A DNA stretch of 50,846 bases from Nitrospirota bacterium (GTDB lineage: Bacteria; Nitrospirota; 9FT-COMBO-42-15; HDB-SIOI813): contig JADLDG010000001.1 of assembly GCA_020846775.1 (NCBI GenBank), forward strand, positions 1 to 50,846. Direction: 5' to 3'. This document shows positions 1,504 to 43,372 of this stretch, piece after piece (position 1 is the first letter of the stretch; each line of letters begins with the position of its first letter). A model generated the notes under the pieces. The model ran no database searches. It was given only the letters and a program-made list of their open reading frames with translations, and was not told where the DNA came from. The translations under genes were made by a program, and so were the position numbers.

Positions 1504-1580
1504 TCATCCTCCATATGTTTTGTACTGTCAATATATCAGAAACAGGAATAAAATTAAATAAGGGGATGGGTTATTTCCAA

Positions 1581-2552
1581 GTGAAACTAAACAACGATAT
1601 TGTAATAGGTATAGATCTGGGCGGCTCTGCTATTCGTCTGTCAACCGTCATGAGGAGCGGCAGACTACGGCATTCAAGGAGGGTATCCATCTCCTCAAGA
1701 CGTGACAAAAAACATGTCATCTCCTCTATCGCTGCTAACATTAAAGAACTTATACAGATTGAAGAGGGACGCGGCAAAAAGGTAATGGCCATAGGTATAG
1801 GCTCTCCAGGTATAATTGATCTGAAAAGAGGGGTTGTTTTGACCTCACCCAATTTTAAAGATTGGAAAGATGTGCGGCTAAGGGCCATTCTTGAAAGAGA
1901 GTCTAATCTGCCGGTTGTGCTCGATAACGATGCCAATGCAGCAGCATATGGTGAAAAATGGAAGGGGGCTGGACGTAAGGTCAATAGCCTGGTCTGTCTT
2001 ACCATGGGAACAGGTATAGGAGGAGGAATTATTCTTAACGGTGAGATATGGCATGGCGCCGACGGAATGTCAGGTGAAATAGGACACATGACTGTAAACC
2101 CGGATGGACCGCACTGCAATTGCGGAAACAACGGTTGCCTTGAAACATACTCATCTGCTACAGGCATGGTACGGAGTGCTGTGACATCTCTAAACAATGG
2201 GAAAAGGTCTGTTCTTAAAAAACTATCATACGGTGACAACAGCAGTATCACGGCAAAGATGATCTATGAATCAGCTTTAAAGGGTGACAGGCTATCTGTG
2301 GATATACTGGCAGAGGCAGGGAAATATCTCGGCATTGCCATGGCCAATCTCATCAATATTATCAACCCTGAGATGATTGTCCTGGCCGGGGCCGTTGCAG
2401 GAGCATGGGATCTTTTTATGCCCTCGGCAAGGAAGGAAATAAAAAAACGGGCCTTCAAAGTACTTGCAGAGAGGACCAAAATAGTTCGAGGTAAACTAAT
2501 AGATACAGCCGGCATAGTGGGAGCGGCAGGTCTGGCGCTAAAGCAGCTATGA
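1581..2552 (+). CDS. ROK-family sugar kinase (glucokinase-like)
   Basis: A cytoplasmic ATP-dependent sugar kinase of 323 residues. It has the N-terminal phosphate motif GIDLGGSAIRLS, the sugar-binding/catalytic DNDANAAAYGE, the phosphate-2 motif TMGTGIGGGII, EIGHMTV, and the ROK zinc-type motif CNCGNNGCLE. There is no N-terminal HTH, so it is an enzyme rather than a ROK repressor; glucose is the likely but unproven substrate. GTG 1581 is preferred: it has GGGGATGGG about 10 nt upstream, whereas ATG 1566 sits directly on that G-run and ATG 1515 adds non-conserved sequence. The start region resembles the repeat-derived start modules seen before lpxD and waaF. The stop overlaps the start of the next gene by 4 nt. 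Confidence 0.87.
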   Translation: MKLNNDIVIGIDLGGSAIRLSTVMRSGRLRHSRRVSISSRRDKKHVISSIAANIKELIQIEEGRGKKVMAIGIGSPGIIDLKRGVVLTSPNFKDWKDVRLRAILERESNLPVVLDNDANAAAYGEKWKGAGRKVNSLVCLTMGTGIGGGIILNGEIWHGADGMSGEIGHMTVNPDGPHCNCGNNGCLETYSSATGMVRSAVTSLNNGKRSVLKKLSYGDNSSITAKMIYESALKGDRLSVDILAEAGKYLGIAMANLINIINPEMIVLAGAVAGAWDLFMPSARKEIKKRAFKVLAERTKIVRGKLIDTAGIVGAAGLALKQL

Positions 2553-13039: not shown

Positions 13040-13150
13040 ATACATATAATGAAAGCACCGGGAACCCTGGCTCACAGTTGCAGGGTCGGGAAATACCGAA
13101 AATGTCCGGGATGACAGGCGTCAATGACAGGGGAGCTGTTTTCGAGTGAA
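13040..13150 (+). repeat. Degenerate repeat upstream of lpxB
   Basis: Between the dehydrogenase and lpxB are the segment CCCTGGCTCACAG, a ...CGGGATGACAGG piece and terminal TTTTCGAGTGAA. These correspond to left, family-C and right pieces of the dispersed repeats seen intact further right. It appears to be a decayed copy whose right end provides the lpxB start. Confidence 0.5.
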
Positions 13151-17999: not shown

Positions 18000-18040
18000 G
18001 AAGGGGTGGTGATGGGGTTAACAAGGGTATTTTCGGATGA
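18000..18040 (+). repeat. Start-module repeat before waaF
   Basis: GTGATGGGGTTAACAAGGG-TATTTTCGG-ATGAA closely matches the 35 nt before lpxD (GGGGATGGGTTAAAAAGGG-TATTATCGA-GTGAA). It provides the Shine-Dalgarno sequence AAGGG and the start codon of waaF. Confidence 0.6.
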
Positions 18041-19236
18041 ATGGTACAAATATAAATAAAGTGCTAATAGTCGCACCCAATTGGCTTGGGGATGCAGTGC
18101 TTGCATTGCCTGCGATCGCAGGTATCAGGGAGCTTTTGCCTTCTTCTCACATGACAGTACTGGGTCTTCCACATATATGTGAACTGTTTAAAGAAAGTCC
18201 GTATATAGATGAAAGAACGATATACTCCGGGACCATGTTAACAACCGTAAATGAACTAAGAAACAAGCGATTTGATTTGGCGGTACTATTCCCTAACTCA
18301 TTCAGGACAGCACTGATGGTTCATCTTGCCCGTATCCCGCATCGCTGCGGATATAAAAGGGATGGACGCGGCATCATGCTTAATTTGCCGGTATCAGTAA
18401 CAGAAGAGACTAGGAAACTTGATCAGGTTGGATATTACCTGAACATAGTAAGTCTTTTAAAGGGGTTTCTTGAAAAAGAGATTCTGAAACAAGTTCAGAA
18501 TGACAGAAATGCAGTAATTTCGGATGAAACACCCATGAGCCTTGGCTCACAAAGGAAAATGAGAAGCACCCTTGTTCCCACTTTTTCAAAGGAGGAAAAC
18601 AGCTACCCCCCTTTAGAAAAGGGGGGTAAGGGGGGATTTTACCCAGGATTTTCAGGTAATCATAAGAAAAAAGAATGGCTGCACCTGTCTAAGGTAGAAC
18701 TTCAGAACGCAGATAAAATACTGCTGAATTACAAAGTACCATCAGGCTCTCTGATTATAGGCATAAATCCTGGCGCTGCATATGGCTCTGCCAAACGCTG
18801 GTATCCTGAACGTTTTGCCCGGGTCTGCAGGGGCATTGCAGAGAGGTACAATAATGCAAATATCATTATCTTCGGAAGTCAGCAGGAATCAGGTATAGCA
18901 GCAGAGATAGAGGCCCTTTCCGGTGTTCCGGTAATCAATATGGCAGGAAAGACTACAATTAGGGGGCTTATTTCACTGATAAAGCAGTGCACTGTTTTTG
19001 TTACAAACGACTCAGGCCCAATGCACATTGCAGCAGCCCTTGCAATACCTGTAGTAGCCATATTTGGTTCCACAGACCCGGTAAAGACAGGCCCTATGGG
19101 AGATGGAAACATCGTAATCAGGAAAAATGCAGAATGCAGTCCATGTTTTAAAAGGATATGCCCTACTGACCTTAAATGCATGGATTTGATAAAAGTAGAA
19201 GATGTGATGGCAGCTGTAAAAAGTATTCTCGGGTGA
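18037..19236 (+). CDS. waaF: LPS heptosyltransferase II (GT9) with repeat-derived internal insertion
   Basis: Adds the second heptose to the inner core. 399 residues, about 50 longer than usual WaaF. N-terminal Rossmann domain VLIVAPNWLGDAVLALPAI, RIPHRCGYKRDGRG; C-terminal nucleotide-sugar domain NPGAAYGSAKRWYP, NDSGPMHIAAAL, AIFGSTDPVKTGP and the Cys-rich CSPCFKRICPTDLKCM. The extra length is two dispersed repeats read in frame: residues about 148-157 and about 160-207 (ENSYPPLEKGGKGGFYPG). They sit between the two domains, where a linker could tolerate them. The final codons (TTCTCGGGTGA) lie in a further repeat copy. Confidence 0.88.
   Translation: MNGTNINKVLIVAPNWLGDAVLALPAIAGIRELLPSSHMTVLGLPHICELFKESPYIDERTIYSGTMLTTVNELRNKRFDLAVLFPNSFRTALMVHLARIPHRCGYKRDGRGIMLNLPVSVTEETRKLDQVGYYLNIVSLLKGFLEKEILKQVQNDRNAVISDETPMSLGSQRKMRSTLVPTFSKEENSYPPLEKGGKGGFYPGFSGNHKKKEWLHLSKVELQNADKILLNYKVPSGSLIIGINPGAAYGSAKRWYPERFARVCRGIAERYNNANIIIFGSQQESGIAAEIEALSGVPVINMAGKTTIRGLISLIKQCTVFVTNDSGPMHIAAALAIPVVAIFGSTDPVKTGPMGDGNIVIRKNAECSPCFKRICPTDLKCMDLIKVEDVMAAVKSILG
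18482..18657 (+). repeat. Two dispersed repeats translated inside waaF
   Basis: 18482-18506 is a family-C hairpin (CTGAAACAAGTTCAGAATGA). 18516-18657 is a full-length family-B element: left end ATTTCGGATGAAAC, GGCTCACAAAG, palindromic core with CTTTTTCAAAGG and CCCCTTTAGAAAAGGGG, G-rich arm and right end TTTTCAGGTAA. Compared with the copy at 21868-22017, stop codons are absent in the waaF frame and the right-hand GAGTGA has changed to CAGGTAA. Confidence 0.85.
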
Positions 19237-19368
19237 ACCATCATTAGCAGAGGCTCACAGAGGCACATAAAAATCCCCCTTACTCCCCCTTTTTCAAAGG
19301 GGAAAATTAGTTACCCCACTTTAGAAAAGGGGGGGCAGGGGGGATTTGAAAGGCAATTTTAGAGTGAA
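19223..19368 (+). repeat. Family-B repeat between waaF and gmhB, about 146 bp
   Basis: Left end GTATTCTCGGGTGAAC contains the waaF stop. Then GAGGCTCACAGAGGCACAT, CCCCCTTTTTCAAAGGGG, TTACCCCACTTTAGAAAAGG, a G-rich tract and right end GATTTGAAAGGC-AATTTTAGA-GTGAAC, which contains the Shine-Dalgarno sequence and GTG start of gmhB. Same order as the copy at 21868-22017. Confidence 0.85.
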
Positions 19369-21070
19369 CAAATTCGTAGTATTCATTGACAGGGACGGCA
19401 CTATCAACGAGGAAGCCGGCTATGTGGACTCCTTCGACAGATTTAAAATACTTCCAGGTGTATCAGATGCTGTCTGTAAATTAAATGTAAACAATATTCC
19501 GGCGATTGTCATAACAAACCAGTCCGGTATTGCCCGGGGATATTTCTCATCTGATTTTGTCAATAAACTGCATGACAGTATGATAGCCATACTTAAGAGA
19601 AAAGGCTGCTTTTTGGATGACATTTATGTGTGTCCCCACCACCCTGATGAAGGGTGTGCCTGCAGAAAGCCCCGGCCTGGGATGCTGCTTAAGGCAGCAA
19701 AAGATCATGGCGTATCACTTCGCAGATCCTTCGTCATCGGAGATAAGATTATTGATATTAAAACAGCTCACAGCGTTGGCGCCAAAGGCATACTCGTATT
19801 GACAGGTTATGGTACGGAAGAAATGAAGGGCCTGACAAATCAGGATCCGGAAGACAGGCCCGACCATATTGCTGCAAATTTATATGAGGCAGTATCCTGG
19901 ATTATAAAAGAAGTTATGAGCAATGAGCAACGAGCAATGAGCGAGAAGGAAAATAAAAACACCCTCCCTTTCAAGGGGAGGGAAGGGGCGGGGATGGGGT
20001 ATTCGGGTGAAGTCAGGCGTATTTTGATTGTCAAACCAAGCTCACTCGGTGACATCATTCACAGCCTTCCCGTGCTGTGGGCGTTAAGGAAGATATATCC
20101 TGACGCTTTTATTGCCTGGGTTGTTAAAGAGGTCTGGCAGGATGTCCTTGCAGACAACCCCCTGATTGACCGCCTGATAATCCTTAAGAAAGGATTATCA
20201 GGTATTAACTCTGCTATCCGCGAAACACGCAGTTTAAGATTTGATACTGTAATTGACCTTCAGGGCCTTTTCAGAAGCGGGATTATTACTTTTTTCTCCG
20301 GTGCCGCAGACAGATTTGGTTTCTCCAATGCAAGAGAATTTGCTCCAATATTTTACAATAACAAAGTTATGGTACCGCCAGGTAAAATTCATGCTGTTGA
20401 CAGATATATGCTCACTATCAGTGCTCTCTCCTGTCCTCAAATCCCCCTTTTTCCCCCTTTATTAAAGGGGGAAAGAAGAAAATTACAGTTTCCGTTTTAC
20501 ATCAGGATTGAAGATGCAGAATGGGTAAGGCAGTTCCTTCTGGAAAATAATTTAAGCGACAAGCAACCCCTTATTGCCATCAATCCGTCTGCACGGTGGA
20601 TAAAAAAACGCTGGCCTGCAGCCTCTTATTCCGCTTTAATAAATCAATTGATAAAAGAACTGAAAGCAGGTATAATAATCGTTGGCAGTAAGGATGATAT
20701 TCCGATTGCGAATGAGATATCATCTCTTGTAGATGAGACGCCTGGCATAGCAACTGGCAAGACATCTATCAGAAAACTGGCGGCATTACTTACTAAAGTC
20801 AATCTGCTCATTACAAATGATTCAGGGCCGATGCATATTGCGGCAGCCCTGGGAACACCGGTAGCAGCATTGTTCGGCCCGACTGATCCTGAGTTAACCG
20901 GCCCTTACGGACAAGGACATGCAGTTGTAAGGAAGAATCTTGATTGCAGTCCCTGTATGAGAAGACCATGTACTGAGGGAAAAACCGTATGCATGGACAC
21001 AATTACCCCGGAAGATGTATTGAATGCAGTTCTCGGGATACTTAAGGGAGTGAAACATGGCGCTAAGTAA
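19364..21070 (+). CDS. Fusion: heptose-1,7-bisphosphate phosphatase GmhB + heptosyltransferase I (GT9)
   Basis: 568 residues. Residues 1-185 are GmhB, a HAD phosphatase of ADP-heptose synthesis: catalytic FIDRDGTINEEAGYV, VITNQSGIARGYF, zinc ligands CPHHPDEGCACRKPRPGM and VIGDKIIDI. Residues from about 217 are a WaaC-type GT9: IVKPSSLGDIIHSLPVLWAL, WVVKEVW, NPSARWIKKRWP, NDSGPMHIAAALGTPVAALF. The linker (about 186-216) is made of a GAGCAAT repeat and a GC-rich palindrome, and another repeat is read inside the GT9 part near residue 360. An internal ATG at 19994 with a G-rich upstream sequence could start WaaC separately, so both fused and separate products are possible. Confidence 0.85.
   Translation: MNKFVVFIDRDGTINEEAGYVDSFDRFKILPGVSDAVCKLNVNNIPAIVITNQSGIARGYFSSDFVNKLHDSMIAILKRKGCFLDDIYVCPHHPDEGCACRKPRPGMLLKAAKDHGVSLRRSFVIGDKIIDIKTAHSVGAKGILVLTGYGTEEMKGLTNQDPEDRPDHIAANLYEAVSWIIKEVMSNEQRAMSEKENKNTLPFKGREGAGMGYSGEVRRILIVKPSSLGDIIHSLPVLWALRKIYPDAFIAWVVKEVWQDVLADNPLIDRLIILKKGLSGINSAIRETRSLRFDTVIDLQGLFRSGIITFFSGAADRFGFSNAREFAPIFYNNKVMVPPGKIHAVDRYMLTISALSCPQIPLFPPLLKGERRKLQFPFYIRIEDAEWVRQFLLENNLSDKQPLIAINPSARWIKKRWPAASYSALINQLIKELKAGIIIVGSKDDIPIANEISSLVDETPGIATGKTSIRKLAALLTKVNLLITNDSGPMHIAAALGTPVAALFGPTDPELTGPYGQGHAVVRKNLDCSPCMRRPCTEGKTVCMDTITPEDVLNAVLGILKGVKHGAK
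19916..20010 (+). repeat. Composite repeat forming the gmhB-waaC linker
   Basis: 19916-19945 is a short tandem array (ATGAGCAATGAGCAACGAG type). 19961-20010 is a GC palindrome (CCCTCCCTTTCAAGGGGAGGG type, positions 19962-19982) followed by GGGGCGGGGATGGGG and the module end TATTCGGGTGAAG. The whole block is open in the gmhB frame. Confidence 0.75.
20437..20476 (+). repeat. Short family-B core read in frame inside the WaaC domain
   Basis: AAATCCCCCTTTTTCCCCC then TTTATTAAAGGGGGAAAG: the palindromic core without the terminal modules. It encodes PQIPLFPPLLKGERRK between the two halves of the GT9 fold. Confidence 0.7.
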
Positions 21071-21275: not shown

Positions 21276-21881
21276 TTGCAACAGACTTTTTCAGAATATC
21301 TCAGACAATCCATTTCCAGGAACAGGGTTACACTAAGCTTCGCAGCTGCGGCCTTCTTTTTATACTATGCCGCACCTACCCGCACTTCGGTTCTTGCCGG
21401 CATCCCCTTTATCATCCTTGGGGAAATTATGCGGATATGGGCATCAGGCTACATAAAGAAGAATGAAGAGCTTTCACAAAGCGGACCATATGCTATTACA
21501 AGAAACCCTCTCTATGTCGGTAATTTCCTTATTGGTACAGGATTCAGCATCATTACGAGCAGGGCCTTACTTATCCTGCTCTACTTAGCCGCTTTCATAT
21601 ATATATACAGATTAACTATACAGGACGAAGAAGCGTTCCTGTCATCTAAATTCGGAGAAACATTTTCAAGATATAAGGCGCGGGTACCGGTTTTTTTCCC
21701 TATAAAAATTCTCTCCTCTGGATCAGCAGCGACTAAAATTACGGATATGCATTTCGCCTGGTATTTAGTACTGAAACACAGGGAATATAATACATGGCTG
21801 GGAATTATTGCGGGGCTGATTATCCTTATTGCGAAGGCAGCATTTTTTACGGCTAAATCATCAGGGAGTATTTTCGGATGA
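21276..21881 (+). CDS. Isoprenylcysteine carboxyl methyltransferase-like membrane protein
   Basis: A 201-residue integral membrane protein with about five hydrophobic segments. The region SGPYAITRNPLYVGNFLI is the signature of the ICMT/PEMT-like methyltransferase family (G-P-Y-x-x-x-R-N-P-x-Y), and EEAFLSSKFGETFSRYKARV is the matching E-E-x-x-L...F-G-x-x-Y-x-x-Y motif. The substrate is unknown. TTG 21276 is the only upstream start available; it lacks a strong Shine-Dalgarno sequence. The last residues (SIFG) and stop are provided by the left end of a dispersed repeat. Confidence 0.8.
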   Translation: MQQTFSEYLRQSISRNRVTLSFAAAAFFLYYAAPTRTSVLAGIPFIILGEIMRIWASGYIKKNEELSQSGPYAITRNPLYVGNFLIGTGFSIITSRALLILLYLAAFIYIYRLTIQDEEAFLSSKFGETFSRYKARVPVFFPIKILSSGSAATKITDMHFAWYLVLKHREYNTWLGIIAGLIILIAKAAFFTAKSSGSIFG

Positions 21882-22017
21882 ACTGTCATGAGCCCTTGGG
21901 GCTCACAAAGATACATGAAAATAATCCCCCTTAATCCCCCTTTTTCAAAGGGGGAAATTGGTTACCCCACTTTAGAAAAGGGGGGCAGGGGGGATTTGAA
22001 AGGCTATTTCGAGTGAA
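21868..22017 (+). repeat. Family-B repeat between ICMT-like gene and rfbD, about 150 bp
   Basis: The best complete copy. Left end GTATTTTCGGATGAAC (stop of the ICMT-like gene), GGGGCTCACAAAGATACATG, core CCCCCTTTTTCAAAGGGGG, TTACCCCACTTTAGAAAAGG, G-rich arm and right end TTGAAAGGC-TATTTCGA-GTGAAG, with the rfbD start at 22013. The two ends are near-identical direct repeats of TATTTTCGRRTGAA. Confidence 0.88.
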
Positions 22018-22888: not shown

Positions 22889-22917
22889 ACCAGTCATGAG
22901 AAGGTGTCATTTTTCGG

Positions 22918-23613
22918 ATGAACGCAAATAAAACAGTTGCTGGCGAAACAGTAGAGAAATATGAGAAGAAAAAAAAGCACTATCAGAGCGATACTGTCGC
23001 CTCAAAATATGATGATGTAAGGTTCATAAAACGCTCGCACAGGATGCGCAATAACAGGAAACTTGCTGCTATACAGAAGGCTATTTCAACGGCCCGGGAC
23101 CTCGGGCATGAGATTAAGAATGTCCTCGATATACCATGCGGTACAGGCAGATTATTCCCGCTGTTAATAGACAATAAGATTTCTTTTACCGGATCTGACA
23201 TCTCAAGGGAAATGATGGAGGTGTCTCGTACCAGGTTTAATAAATCCGGCCTGATCAATGGTATGGTGCGGTGTGATGCAGAATCGCTGCCTTTCAGGGA
23301 CAGGTCATTTGACTCTGTATTAAGCATTCGATTTATGTTCCATGTTCCGAAAGAGGTAAGACATAACATATTAATTGAGATGGCACGGATCAGCAGGAAA
23401 TGGCTGATCATAGATTTCCGCCACAAATACACGGTAAAGTACTACATTAAAAGCTTCCTCAGCAACCTTGGCATTGGAAGGCCGCCTTCATATCGTTTTT
23501 CTGAATCTGAACTGCAAAGTGAACTGCACTCTGCCGGGATAAAGGTAGTCAGGATATTTCCTACCCTGCGTTTTTTTTCTGACAAATGGGTAGTCCTTTG
23601 CAAAATAAGTTAG
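22918..23613 (+). CDS. Class I SAM-dependent methyltransferase
   Basis: 231 residues. SAM-binding motif I VLDIPCGTGRLFPLL (about residue 63), FTGSDISREM (motif II), CDAESLPFRDRSFDSVLSIR (motifs III-IV). A basic N-terminal segment and a C-terminal region mentioning RFFSDKWVV follow. The position among LPS core genes suggests methylation of a saccharide or lipid precursor, but no substrate is identifiable. ATG 22918 lies in the module ...TTTTTCGG-ATGAAC. Confidence 0.82.
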   Translation: MNANKTVAGETVEKYEKKKKHYQSDTVASKYDDVRFIKRSHRMRNNRKLAAIQKAISTARDLGHEIKNVLDIPCGTGRLFPLLIDNKISFTGSDISREMMEVSRTRFNKSGLINGMVRCDAESLPFRDRSFDSVLSIRFMFHVPKEVRHNILIEMARISRKWLIIDFRHKYTVKYYIKSFLSNLGIGRPPSYRFSESELQSELHSAGIKVVRIFPTLRFFSDKWVVLCKIS

Positions 23614-40836: not shown

Positions 40837-41613
40837 TTACCTGAACAGCAAGGCTGCCATAAAATAGTTTGCAATCAGGACAAACATCATGGATAACACC
40901 ACGGCGCCTGTCGTTGCCCTCCCGACGCCCTCTGCACCGCCCTGCGTATAGAACCCCTTATAACAACTGACCGTAGAGATGATGACACCAAAAACGCACG
41001 CCTTAAGCAGCCCCCCGTACACATCATTTAATTCTATATACTCAGTAGTCATTCGCATATAAATAACGGAATTGGCGCCTAATACATAGACGGCTATTAA
41101 ATAACCGCCGATTACAGAAATGATGTCAGCAATTATTACAAGCAAAGGCAGCACAATAAGTCCCGCAATAAACCTCGGCACAACAAGATGTTTTACAGGA
41201 TTAGTCGCCAGGGTCACAAGTGCATCTATCTGTTCTGTAACACGCATTGTACCCAACTCAGCAGCCATGGCGGCTCCTGCCCGGCCAGATACAATAAGCC
41301 CTGTGAGTACCGGACCGAGCTCTCTTGCAACTGAAAGCGCAACGACAGTACCCACAAAATTCTCTGCGTTGAATCTCTTGAAGCCAGTGTATGTCTGAAT
41401 CGCAAGAACCATTCCTGTAAACAACGCCATGATAATGACAACCGGGAGCGAATTAAAACCTATCGCCTCCATCTGCTGAAAAATTATACGAAGATTAAAA
41501 GGACGTCTGAAACTCCATGATAGAGTCTGCCAGAACATTATAGAACCACGCCCGATCTCCTCTGTGAGCTTCAGTGTGCCCTTGCCTATGTATGCAAATG
41601 ATCTGATTATCAT
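40837..41613 (-). CDS. Mla-type ABC transporter permease MlaE family
   Basis: 258 residues, about five to six membrane segments. Conserved region SVARELGPVLTGLIVSGRAG followed by AAMAAELGTMRVTEQIDAL is the MlaE signature. Starts by ATGA overlap with the end of alr (41610-41613), so it is translationally coupled to it. Confidence 0.92.
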   Translation of the reverse strand: MIIRSFAYIGKGTLKLTEEIGRGSIMFWQTLSWSFRRPFNLRIIFQQMEAIGFNSLPVVIIMALFTGMVLAIQTYTGFKRFNAENFVGTVVALSVARELGPVLTGLIVSGRAGAAMAAELGTMRVTEQIDALVTLATNPVKHLVVPRFIAGLIVLPLLVIIADIISVIGGYLIAVYVLGANSVIYMRMTTEYIELNDVYGGLLKACVFGVIISTVSCYKGFYTQGGAEGVGRATTGAVVLSMMFVLIANYFMAALLFR

Positions 41614-42722
41614 TTTATATACACCCTGTCAACCCTCTCGCCTATCCCGCACAACACTTCATACGGTATTGTATCGGTCCAGCGTGCTATGTCATCAGCA
41701 TATATACCATTACCATCCGGGCCGCCTATAATTGCAACCTCATCACCAACTGCTGCACCCGGAATATCGGTAACATCAACCATCGTCATATCCATACAGA
41801 CCCGTCCAATTACAGGGGCACGAACTCCTCTTATAATGACCTGCCCTGTATTTGACAGACGGCGGCTGAAGCCATCAGCATATCCGACAGGCAGAGTAGC
41901 CACAATGGTTTCACGACTCGTAGTGAAAATCCTGCCATAACTTATACCTGTCTTGGGAGGGACCTTTTTCACATATATGATACTGCTCTTCAATGTCATT
42001 ACCGGTTTCAGATCAGCCTTTTCCCGAGACAGAGCAGATGGCGAATAGCCATACAGCATTATCCCGGGCCTCACCATGTCGAGATGAGTTTCCTTCATAT
42101 CAATAATCGCCGCACTATTGGCTGCATGTTTCAGAGGTATTCTGATACCAGCCTCTTCGATATTTTTGCATGCTGTTAAAAACCTGCTCAACTGCTCCTT
42201 TACAAAATCCTTATCATCAAGGTCTGACTCTGCAAAATGGGTCATCAGGCCTTGTATCGTAATCCCTTTGAAATTTGAGATACTTGAGACAAACTCTGCT
42301 GCATCGTCTGAGTCAACCCCGATCCTTCTCATACCGGTATCCACTTTTACATGAACCGGTACTTTTATGCCTGCCGAACAGGATGCCTCAGACAACGACT
42401 TTACCACAGACTGACTGTAAACAACAGGTGTTAAGCGCCACTTTATAATATCCTGTACACTGCCGGCACATATTAATCCAAGGACCAGGATGTCTTTGTT
42501 GATACCGGCCTTCCTCAGGCGAAGTCCCTCATCAACAGTAGCGACTCCAAGCATATCTACACCGGCATTTTCAAGCTCCCGCGACACCTCTATACTTCCA
42601 TGACCATAGGCGTTGGCCTTTACAACTGCAAGGACTTTACAGCCTGCAGGAATTAACATTCTCACCTGGTTAAGGTTATGGACTAAATTGGAAAGATTCA
42701 TCTCAGCGATTGTTAGATTCAC
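41610..42722 (-). CDS. alr: Alanine racemase
   Basis: PLP enzyme producing D-alanine for peptidoglycan. 370 residues. PLP Lys in VLAVVKANAYGHG (about residue 34), HVKVDTGMRRIG, the catalytic-Tyr region GISYGRIFTT, VGYADGFSRRL and the C-terminal GRVCMDMTMVDVT. The GTG start at 42722 lies inside the right end of a family-B repeat and overlaps the stop of the upstream TPR gene (GTGA). Family length is normal from this start. Confidence 0.95.
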   Translation of the reverse strand: MNLTIAEMNLSNLVHNLNQVRMLIPAGCKVLAVVKANAYGHGSIEVSRELENAGVDMLGVATVDEGLRLRKAGINKDILVLGLICAGSVQDIIKWRLTPVVYSQSVVKSLSEASCSAGIKVPVHVKVDTGMRRIGVDSDDAAEFVSSISNFKGITIQGLMTHFAESDLDDKDFVKEQLSRFLTACKNIEEAGIRIPLKHAANSAAIIDMKETHLDMVRPGIMLYGYSPSALSREKADLKPVMTLKSSIIYVKKVPPKTGISYGRIFTTSRETIVATLPVGYADGFSRRLSNTGQVIIRGVRAPVIGRVCMDMTMVDVTDIPGAAVGDEVAIIGGPDGNGIYADDIARWTDTIPYEVLCGIGERVDRVYIK

Positions 42723-42818
42723 TCGAAATAGCCTTTCAAATCCCCCCAGCCCCCCTTTTCTAAAGTGGGGTAACTAATTTCGCCCTTTGAAAAAGGGGGA
42801 TTAAGGGGGATTTTCATA
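42717..42818 (-). repeat. Family-B repeat spanning the TPR gene end and alr start, about 100 bp
   Basis: Minus strand: AATCCCCCTTAATCCCCC, TTTTTCAAAGGGCGAAATTA, TTACCCCACTTTAGAAAAGG, GGGGGGATTTGAAAGGC-TATTTCGA-GTGAA. The left module is missing. It is translated as the last 32 residues of the TPR protein and its right end gives the alr Shine-Dalgarno sequence and GTG. Confidence 0.88.
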
Positions 42819-43372
42819 TTTATCTCTTCAAGCAACTTTATCTCATCATCCCGTAATGACTTATCATCTGGCGAGGTAAGCACCATAGCCTCCTCTAATA
42901 TTTTCCTTGCATCTTCATATCTTCCCACACGATAATAAATATTAGCCAGTGTATTCAGGTAATACGGACTCCTCTCTATTCTGACCGCCTTCTCTGCCTC
43001 CCTGCCAGCATCCGCAAACCTGCCTGTATCAAGATAGACCCATGCAAGGTTATTATGCACATCTCCGTTATCCGGTGCAACCTTTAACGCTTTATTATAA
43101 TATCTTTCAGCAAGTTTATAATCTTTTTTTTTGTAGTAAACATTACCTGCATAAAGAAATGGTCTGAAGTCGTCCTTCGAAATTCTGATTGCCTTGTCAT
43201 ACTCTTTAACCGCAAGGTCATCCTCTCCTTTTTGTTCATAACTGAGGCCGAGGGTAATGTGTTCATTCATTGTCAGAGGGTCATGCATGACTATTAACCT
43301 TGGGATTGTGACACAGGAAGAGACTGAGAATATTAATATAATTGCAAGTATATCAATGTACGGTTTTTTCAT
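42719..43372 (-). CDS. TPR-repeat lipoprotein with repeat-derived C-terminus
   Basis: 217 residues from ATG 43372. The signal peptide has a lipobox around VSSCVTIP (Cys at about residue 20). At least three tetratricopeptide repeats are seen, e.g. EQKGEDDLAVKEYDKAIRIS, YYKKKDYKLAERYYNKALKV and LAWVYLDTGRFADAGREAEK. The last 32 residues (LNPPFSKGEISYPTLEKGG) are encoded by a family-B repeat, and so probably not ancestral. ATG 43372 overlaps the stop of the C39 peptidase gene by 4 nt. Such TPR proteins accompany PA2778-type peptidases; function unknown. Confidence 0.83.
   Translation of the reverse strand: MKKPYIDILAIILIFSVSSCVTIPRLIVMHDPLTMNEHITLGLSYEQKGEDDLAVKEYDKAIRISKDDFRPFLYAGNVYYKKKDYKLAERYYNKALKVAPDNGDVHNNLAWVYLDTGRFADAGREAEKAVRIERSPYYLNTLANIYYRVGRYEDARKILEEAMVLTSPDDKSLRDDEIKLLEEINMKIPLNPPFSKGEISYPTLEKGGWGDLKGYFE

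Follow-up and report, generated by a model that had tools for sequence, protein, structure and literature searches.

On the minus strand of the window (the whole stretch of DNA analysed here, 50,846 nt), the gene for a TPR lipoprotein is followed by alr, and the junction between them is occupied by a copy of a dispersed repeat, whose end holds both the stop codon of the former and the apparent start codon of the latter. The features of this junction are as follows:

42719..43372, minus strand: TPR lipoprotein gene, with its ATG at 43372
41610..42722, minus strand: alr, alanine racemase of 370 aa, with its apparent GTG start inside the repeat
42718..42812, minus strand: 95-nt repeat core, an imperfect palindrome with an asymmetric tail ending in GTGAA, delimited by copy alignment
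42739..42812, minus strand: palindromic middle, AATCCCCCTTAATCCCCC...GGGGGGATTT, of the CCCCCTT type in the alr copy
42718..42738, minus strand: constant right end, GAAAGG-CTATTTCGA-GTGAA, made up of a Shine-Dalgarno-like sequence, spacer and start codon, by copy alignment
42732..42736, minus strand: Shine-Dalgarno-like AAAGG, 9 nt before the GTG, by sequence reading
42719..42722, minus strand: GTGA, in which the alr start codon (42722-42720) overlaps the TPR stop (42721-42719)
42722..42811, minus strand: C-terminus of the TPR lipoprotein as encoded by the repeat (30 residues)

Positions 1-74 of the core match their own inverse in a self-inverted BLAST match, and the segment 42690-42840 has a predicted RNA fold of -50.2 kcal/mol (z -3.8), in which the palindromic middle makes a strong hairpin. 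The TPR frame terminates, read on the minus strand, as ...LLEEINMK-IPLNPPFSKGEISYPTLEKGGWGDLKGYFE*, with NPPFSKGEISYPTLEK as a peptide stretch of the tail. A preliminary description of this DNA had attributed the last 32 residues of the protein to the repeat; a repeat-encoded terminus is confirmed, with 30 residues lying within the repeat (42811-42722) and the rest being the preceding Met-Lys. Its extent for the repeat, 42717-42818, shrinks to the core at 42718-42812, the conserved repeat ending with GTGAA at 42718 and the left third being missing from this copy. It had rightly placed the TPR stop and, shifted by one base, the GTG of alr in the last bases of the repeat, and rightly pointed to copies on the opposite strand about 20 kb away: the core at the alr site is 97% identical to the plus-strand copy at 21923-22017, 20.7 kb apart. 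About 40 further copies of the core are present in the 2.73-Mb genome (136 contigs), with E-values down to 1e-41, and hence the repeat is not a product of chance.

Upstream of its GTG, the alr frame runs into a TAG inside the repeat, with no ATG, GTG or TTG between the two. Downstream, a search of the sequence for a conserved start with a Shine-Dalgarno sequence of its own, the possibility that the preliminary description had itself raised against its reading, yielded none: the next candidate is the ATG at codon 8, which lacks a Shine-Dalgarno sequence and lies inside the conserved T-x-A-E stretch, common to solved alanine racemases from residue 8-9, that a start at this codon would remove. 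The TIGR00492 model matches the alr frame with 412 bits, aligning its residue 5 to profile position 4. We see no credible start for alr other than the GTG of the repeat, and the conservation of the reading frame argues for translation from it.

The proposed comparison of this junction across relatives (G000 being the genome of the window, G001 that of a sister species, and the other G numbers further genomes compared) clarifies how it arose. The homologous start codon of alr is GTG in G001, G004 and G006, and ATG in G002, G005 and G008. The site is filled in G000 and G001 and empty in G004 and G006, and in the latter two alr starts at the homologous codon, which likewise overlaps the stop of TPR as GTGA; this indicates that both the position of the alr start and its coupling are old. 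The repeat-encoded C-terminus of the TPR protein is missing in the orthologues of G001, G002, G004 and G006. Read together, these junctions indicate that the repeat replaced or preserved the alr start and created no new one, the TPR tail being the apparent novelty. The history of the junction is not simple, given that in G002, where the palindrome is absent, TPR is already read into alr; with its likeness to a solo right end, the junction of that genome, ATGAAAGGTATGTTAGATGAA, may have lost the palindrome. A further arrangement is seen in G001 (L043, 486-1500), where TPR and then alr each start at a GTCATTCCCGCG-type element, the one at alr being preceded by another in tandem.

The alr copy begins with ATGAAAATCCCCC and lacks the left third of full-length copies, namely the RTGA-CGTC-hairpin module, and it is because the stops of this left end are gone that the TPR frame reads through the repeat. 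The canonical palindrome leaves a single frame free of stops, which closes precisely at the terminal TGA and is, as it happens, the one used by the TPR protein. Of the 36 copies in the genome, that at alr is the only one in which a long frame from upstream extends as far as this TGA, making the TPR read-through an exception among the copies. This uniqueness, along with the varying length and phase of the leader frame MKIIPLNPPFSKG... between copies, would suit an account in which the alr copy is an isolated accident, with an ordinary selfish palindrome having landed between TPR and alr and the start having been restored by chance. We regard this as unlikely: the same coincidence of repeat and start codon is seen at dozens of genes, across two or more species. 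The account is already contradicted for the start codon and stands for the TPR tail.

Aligning the copies together with their flanks revealed a longer, composite unit, whose anatomy can be read directly from the aligned sequences. The left end, RTGAAC-CGTCATGAGCC-n-GGCTCACAAAGG-n-ATGAAAAT, can be parsed as RTGA(A)C-CGTC-hairpin-AAAGG..ATGAAAAT and contains TGA codons in all three frames. The middle is one of several unrelated palindromes, while the right end consists of a G-rich Shine-Dalgarno-like stretch (GAAAGGC), followed by TATTTTCGR and RTGAA, with a peak of G at the Shine-Dalgarno-like position across the right ends. Between copies and species the middles vary (CCCCCTTAATCCCCC..., GTCATTCCCGCG...GCGGGAATCC, GATTCTGAAACAAGTTCAGAATGACA, CCCTCCCCTTCAAGGGGAGGG... 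and AGCGGGACAAGAAAGTCCCGCC) and the ends are constant; thus, a right end as at alr is joined to unrelated middles in the relatives, and rmlD in G000, G001 and G004 is preceded by different middles with one and the same right end. Within the window, further instances are found at the following positions:

21870..22017, plus strand: full composite element with left boundary ATTTTCGGATGAAC; its right-end GTG at 22013 is the start of rmlD/rfbD
19233..19368, plus strand: full composite element between waaF and a gmhB-heptosyltransferase fusion
18029..18041, plus strand: right-end motif ATTTTCGGATGAA, whose ATG at 18037 is the start of a heptosyltransferase gene
18471..18663, plus strand: old composite element within the heptosyltransferase coding sequence, in frame
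1573..1585, plus strand: right-end-like motif ATTTCCAAGTGAA with no palindrome, whose GTG at 1581 starts a 323-aa ORF
22909..22922, plus strand: right-end-like motif, whose ATG at 22918 starts a 231-aa ORF
13138..13150, plus strand: right-end-like motif, whose GTG at 13146 starts a 382-aa ORF

Altogether, seven genes of the window start at a right end, six on the plus strand (1581, 13146, 18037, 19364, 22013 and 22918) and alr on the minus strand (42722). The element at 19233..19368 illustrates the use of both of its ends, with the waaF stop TGA (19234-19236) lying in the left GTGA and the fusion gene starting at the right GTG (19364). The heptosyltransferase encoded at 18037-19236 (plus strand) carries an insert of about 60 residues (KEILKQVQNDRNAVISDETPMSLGSQRKMRSTLVPTFSKEENSYPPLEKGGKGG...) that is missing from its orthologues in G001, G002, G004 and G005. 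The 323-aa ORF at 1581 is, by its sequence, a ROK-like kinase. As observations on the neighbouring genes, the frame at 19364-21067 (plus strand) fuses a GmhB phosphatase and an LPS heptosyltransferase into a single protein of 568 aa, and the linker between these two parts in G001 contains another translated palindrome (NPPFSKGETFFPPLVKGG).

Searches and fetched stretches of the genomes, on which all our counts rest, delimit the spread of these ends. The left boundary pattern is present in 9 of 10 genomes of one family of uncultured Nitrospirota and in none of 188 others sampled from the phylum, and a 14-mer of the right end has 54 matches in G000, 103 each in G001 and G003, and 478 in G007, with 0-4 matches for the reversed pattern (4 in G007) and at most one match in two other families. 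By these counts, the composite element is limited to the one family. G007, the genome with most copies, has its approximately 478 right-end motifs in 3 Mb and displays tandem arrays of the element (L101-L112) with a period of ~123-150 nt and differing middles.

The constancy of the right end (GG..TATTTTCGRRTGAA) could alternatively mean that it serves this family as a conserved leader for translation initiation or regulation and is no part of anything mobile, common palindromic repeats having inserted upstream of it. Right ends standing alone, with no palindrome, at the fabH, rok and dapF starts agree with such a leader, as does the presence of different palindromes before the same start across species (rmlD, gmhB and queC). 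However, the motif also occurs in tandem arrays and away from genes, as the excess over the reversed control in G007 indicates, close relatives lack it at orthologous starts (trmFO, the L125 gene and ispD), and the left REP-like module accompanies it. We therefore consider a leader of this kind distinctly improbable. The solo right ends themselves (L149, L143 and L166 of G000, at the starts of fabH, the ROK-like kinase and dapF) look like what would remain of an element after a deletion from one of its direct-repeat ends to the other.

The role at gene starts extends, as the preliminary description had surmised, beyond one operon, being genome-wide and family-wide. As a proxy for a real start, we took a right-end RTG that opens an ORF of at least 80 aa, using the loci first among the matches listed along with the fetched stretches, and right ends not followed by another element. 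By this measure, the RTG opens such an ORF at 46 of the 68 sites listed in G001, against 189 of 1023 other RTGAA (control 18%; Fisher 2.6e-17), and at 18 of the 25 sites listed in G000, against 273 of 1319 (control 21%; Fisher 7.5e-8). Boundaries with a further element behind them open none (0/33 in G001 and 0/5 in G000). G007 was set aside as support for this rule, its sample, chosen for tandem arrays, showing no significant excess of ORF starts (7/26 vs 91/437). Genes started by right ends align to NCBIfam models from their first residues, among them ispD, rmlD, murJ, thiE, cobA, apsK, lexA, pcrA/uvrD, gspK, gmhB and others. In several copies (L005, L010, L011, L015 and L017), the element has an ATG of its own in the frame of the gene, which could start the gene further upstream. 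A gene for a Csm6-type CRISPR ring nuclease (L036:3166-4308) also starts at the GTG of an element.

Orthologous sites with and without the element reveal what it displaces. For trmFO, the site is empty in G001, G004, G005 and G008, where the TGA of the preceding gene overlaps the ATGAAACC start, and filled in G000, where the element lies between AAGGAATAATGAAC and TTTTCAGATGAAACC. The TPR start within the window, where the ATG at 43372 overlaps the stop of the preceding gene as ATGA, is itself the empty site of an element that G001 carries: a stop/start overlap is seen in G000 (AAAAAATGAAAAAACC) and G002 (AAAGAGTGAAAAATA), and G001 has the upstream stop at the left ATTTCCAAGTGA and the TPR start at the right TTTTCGAGTGAAG. 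The L125 gene has an ATGA overlap in five relatives and is filled in G001, with the end of the upstream protein, AAGGGCAAGTGA, kept at the left and the start provided at the right by GTGAAA. Similarly, the L185 gene is filled in G001 where G000 has TTTTCAGGTGAC, and hisD is filled in G001 where G000 has an ATGA overlap. These pairs indicate that an RTGA overlap is turned by insertion into two copies, one serving as stop and the other as start. A simple target duplication is nevertheless doubtful, the left and right RTG bases agreeing in 30 of 50 G001 elements but not strictly.

The same sites bring up the question of whose start codon this is, as RTGAA was often present before insertion. It is possible, though we think it doubtful, that target preference is the entire explanation: the element would insert beside RTGAA, a common gene start (ATG-AAA/AAC), so that the host supplies the start codon and the element adds only a new 5' flank. 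Empty relatives indeed already have RTGAA at the start of dapF, trmFO, ispD, degT and rfbD, and the trmFO, TPR and L125-gene sites had it before insertion. Against this, RTGAA persists at right ends that no gene follows and at all boundaries inside the tandem arrays, and the start base tracks the type of element of the genome (GTG in G001, ATG in G007) regardless of whether a gene follows, which argues that the RTG is carried by the element. Further, the RTG of the element is off the homologous codon in uvrD, in waaF of G001 and in fabH. For uvrD, relatives have ATGGAY where G000 has AAAGAC, the native ATG having been lost, and the GTG of the element three codons upstream now starts the frame; to judge from these frames, the start of uvrD in G000 is plainly the element's own. 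The Shine-Dalgarno-like sequence is in any case replaced.

Hence, we propose that the repeat probably belongs to a dispersed composite element, apparently mobile, which punctuates translation from one gene to the next. Such elements lie at stop/start junctions, overlapping RTGA codons among them, the stop of the gene upstream remaining in the left RTGA and the start of the gene downstream falling in the right one. Under this proposal, ribosomes at the end of the upstream gene would terminate in the left end, and a new initiation, at the Shine-Dalgarno-like sequence and start codon of the right end, would serve the downstream gene. An insertion inside an operon would thus leave both proteins intact, which may be why copies accumulate at operon junctions in the orientation of the genes; tolerance in operons would then be the cause of the distribution. 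At alr, the missing left end would leave the TPR frame open through the palindrome to the terminal TGA, so that the protein gains its 30 extra residues and alr regains a GTGA stop/start coupling like the ancestral one. A more specific version of the proposal, namely a lineage-specific mobile element that targets the RTGA stop/start overlap of operon genes, carries a complete punctuation set (three-frame stops, hairpins, Shine-Dalgarno and start codon), splits coupled genes harmlessly and is now the native start of dozens of housekeeping genes including alr, is one on which our confidence is evenly divided.

Certain other candidates for function and mobility met with difficulties. An RNA structure exposing the Shine-Dalgarno region was rejected as a general feature, predicted folding making the region more open in G001 (0.49 vs 0.35 unpaired) and not in G000. 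A coupled leader peptide is suggested by full CCCCCTT-type copies, which encode MKIIPLNPPFSKG..GYFE* ending on the terminal TGA; it was rejected as the general function because few copies keep this phase and many enter the gene or stop inside. Movement would presumably require some enzyme. RAYTs look doubtful as the mover: Y1_Tnp genes number one each in G000 and G001, are absent from the copy-richest G007, and are nowhere flanked by the element. Among the genomes compared, we found no parent transposon.

Bacterial repeats are usually thought to be tolerated because they avoid genes. The repeat described here falls time after time on the start codon, where a gene is most sensitive, and seems to be tolerated by bringing its own start. 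If true, this would show a mobile sequence spreading inside operons and uncoupling overlapping genes, would account for a large class of wrongly annotated starts and unusual protein tails (NPPFSKGG-type peptides) in these genomes, and would supply natural pairs of junctions, coupled where empty and uncoupled where filled, in which to test the function of stop/start overlaps.

Among the known classes of repeats, the element is MITE-like in being short, non-coding, dispersed, and present or absent at orthologous sites; its ends carry RTGA(A) on both sides as direct, not inverted, repeats, though not always with matching bases. Repeats that contain stop codons are already known from REP and BOX, and in-frame repeats from the RU and Rickettsia elements. 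Our literature search, in which few subscription-journal papers were covered, found no repeats that systematically supply start codons with a Shine-Dalgarno-like sequence.

Close parallels are found in the CGTC- and GTAG-tagged REPs and mosaic BIMEs (Di Nocera et al. 2013, PMC3733652). The ends of GTAG REPs were reported to furnish flanking ORFs with a TAG stop, and uni-directional REPs are described as lying near the 3' end of the upstream gene at a varying distance from the downstream start (PMC3733652). The element resembles them in having short palindromes and a CGTC tag, in being a mosaic of several palindromes, and in being intergenic and co-directional, and its GTCATTCCCGCG.. middle has the form of the CGTC-1/dRS3 repeat (PMC3733652). 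The CGTC tag is evident as a left module, CCGTCATGAGCC-n-GGCTCAC, in most full-length copies, the alr copy being without it. In place of the REP stem of 8-9 bp from AT with a 4-5 nt loop and a CCA-type tail, the left stem of the element, TGAGCC/GGCTCA, has 6 bp with an A-C mismatch below, a variable loop and the tail AAAGG. Unlike the REPs of that study (PMC3733652), the element falls with its right end exactly on the start codon of the gene downstream and brings a Shine-Dalgarno-like sequence there.

Pneumococcal BOX elements contain the stop codon of 36 annotated genes and provide a few start codons from boxC (PMC3049150), and BOX-encoded ORFs that start within the repeat are hypothetical proteins without a good Shine-Dalgarno (PMC3049150). 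The element shares with BOX constant ends around a variable middle, a likeness of modular architecture (PMC3049150); it differs in that known housekeeping genes start at its end behind a Shine-Dalgarno-like sequence (PMC3049150). Rickettsia palindromic elements and enterobacterial RU elements make in-frame fusions in proteins (PMC2759123), as does the present repeat in the TPR tail and the heptosyltransferase at 18037-19236; unlike in those elements, coding use is rare here and the start/stop role is the rule (PMC2759123). The intrastrand triplex motif TM_ECO of E. coli is reported to be intergenic, to show no strand bias and not to be tied to gene starts (PMC4666352). The CCCTCCCCTTCAAGGGGAGGG..AGGGTGGGG middle resembles it, and the alr middle likewise has pyrimidine-pyrimidine-purine tracts (PMC4666352); by reading, the alr copy with its CCCCCTT-type middle departs from the consensus CCCTCNCCCN(3-6)GGGNGAGGGN3GGGNGAGGG, and some of the middles in relatives resemble it. 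Finally, the 4-nt RTGA stop/start overlap serves translational coupling by termination-reinitiation (PMC6728339). The junction that the element occupies and recreates is this very coupling overlap, with the difference that there it belongs to overlapping host genes and involves no mobile element (PMC6728339).
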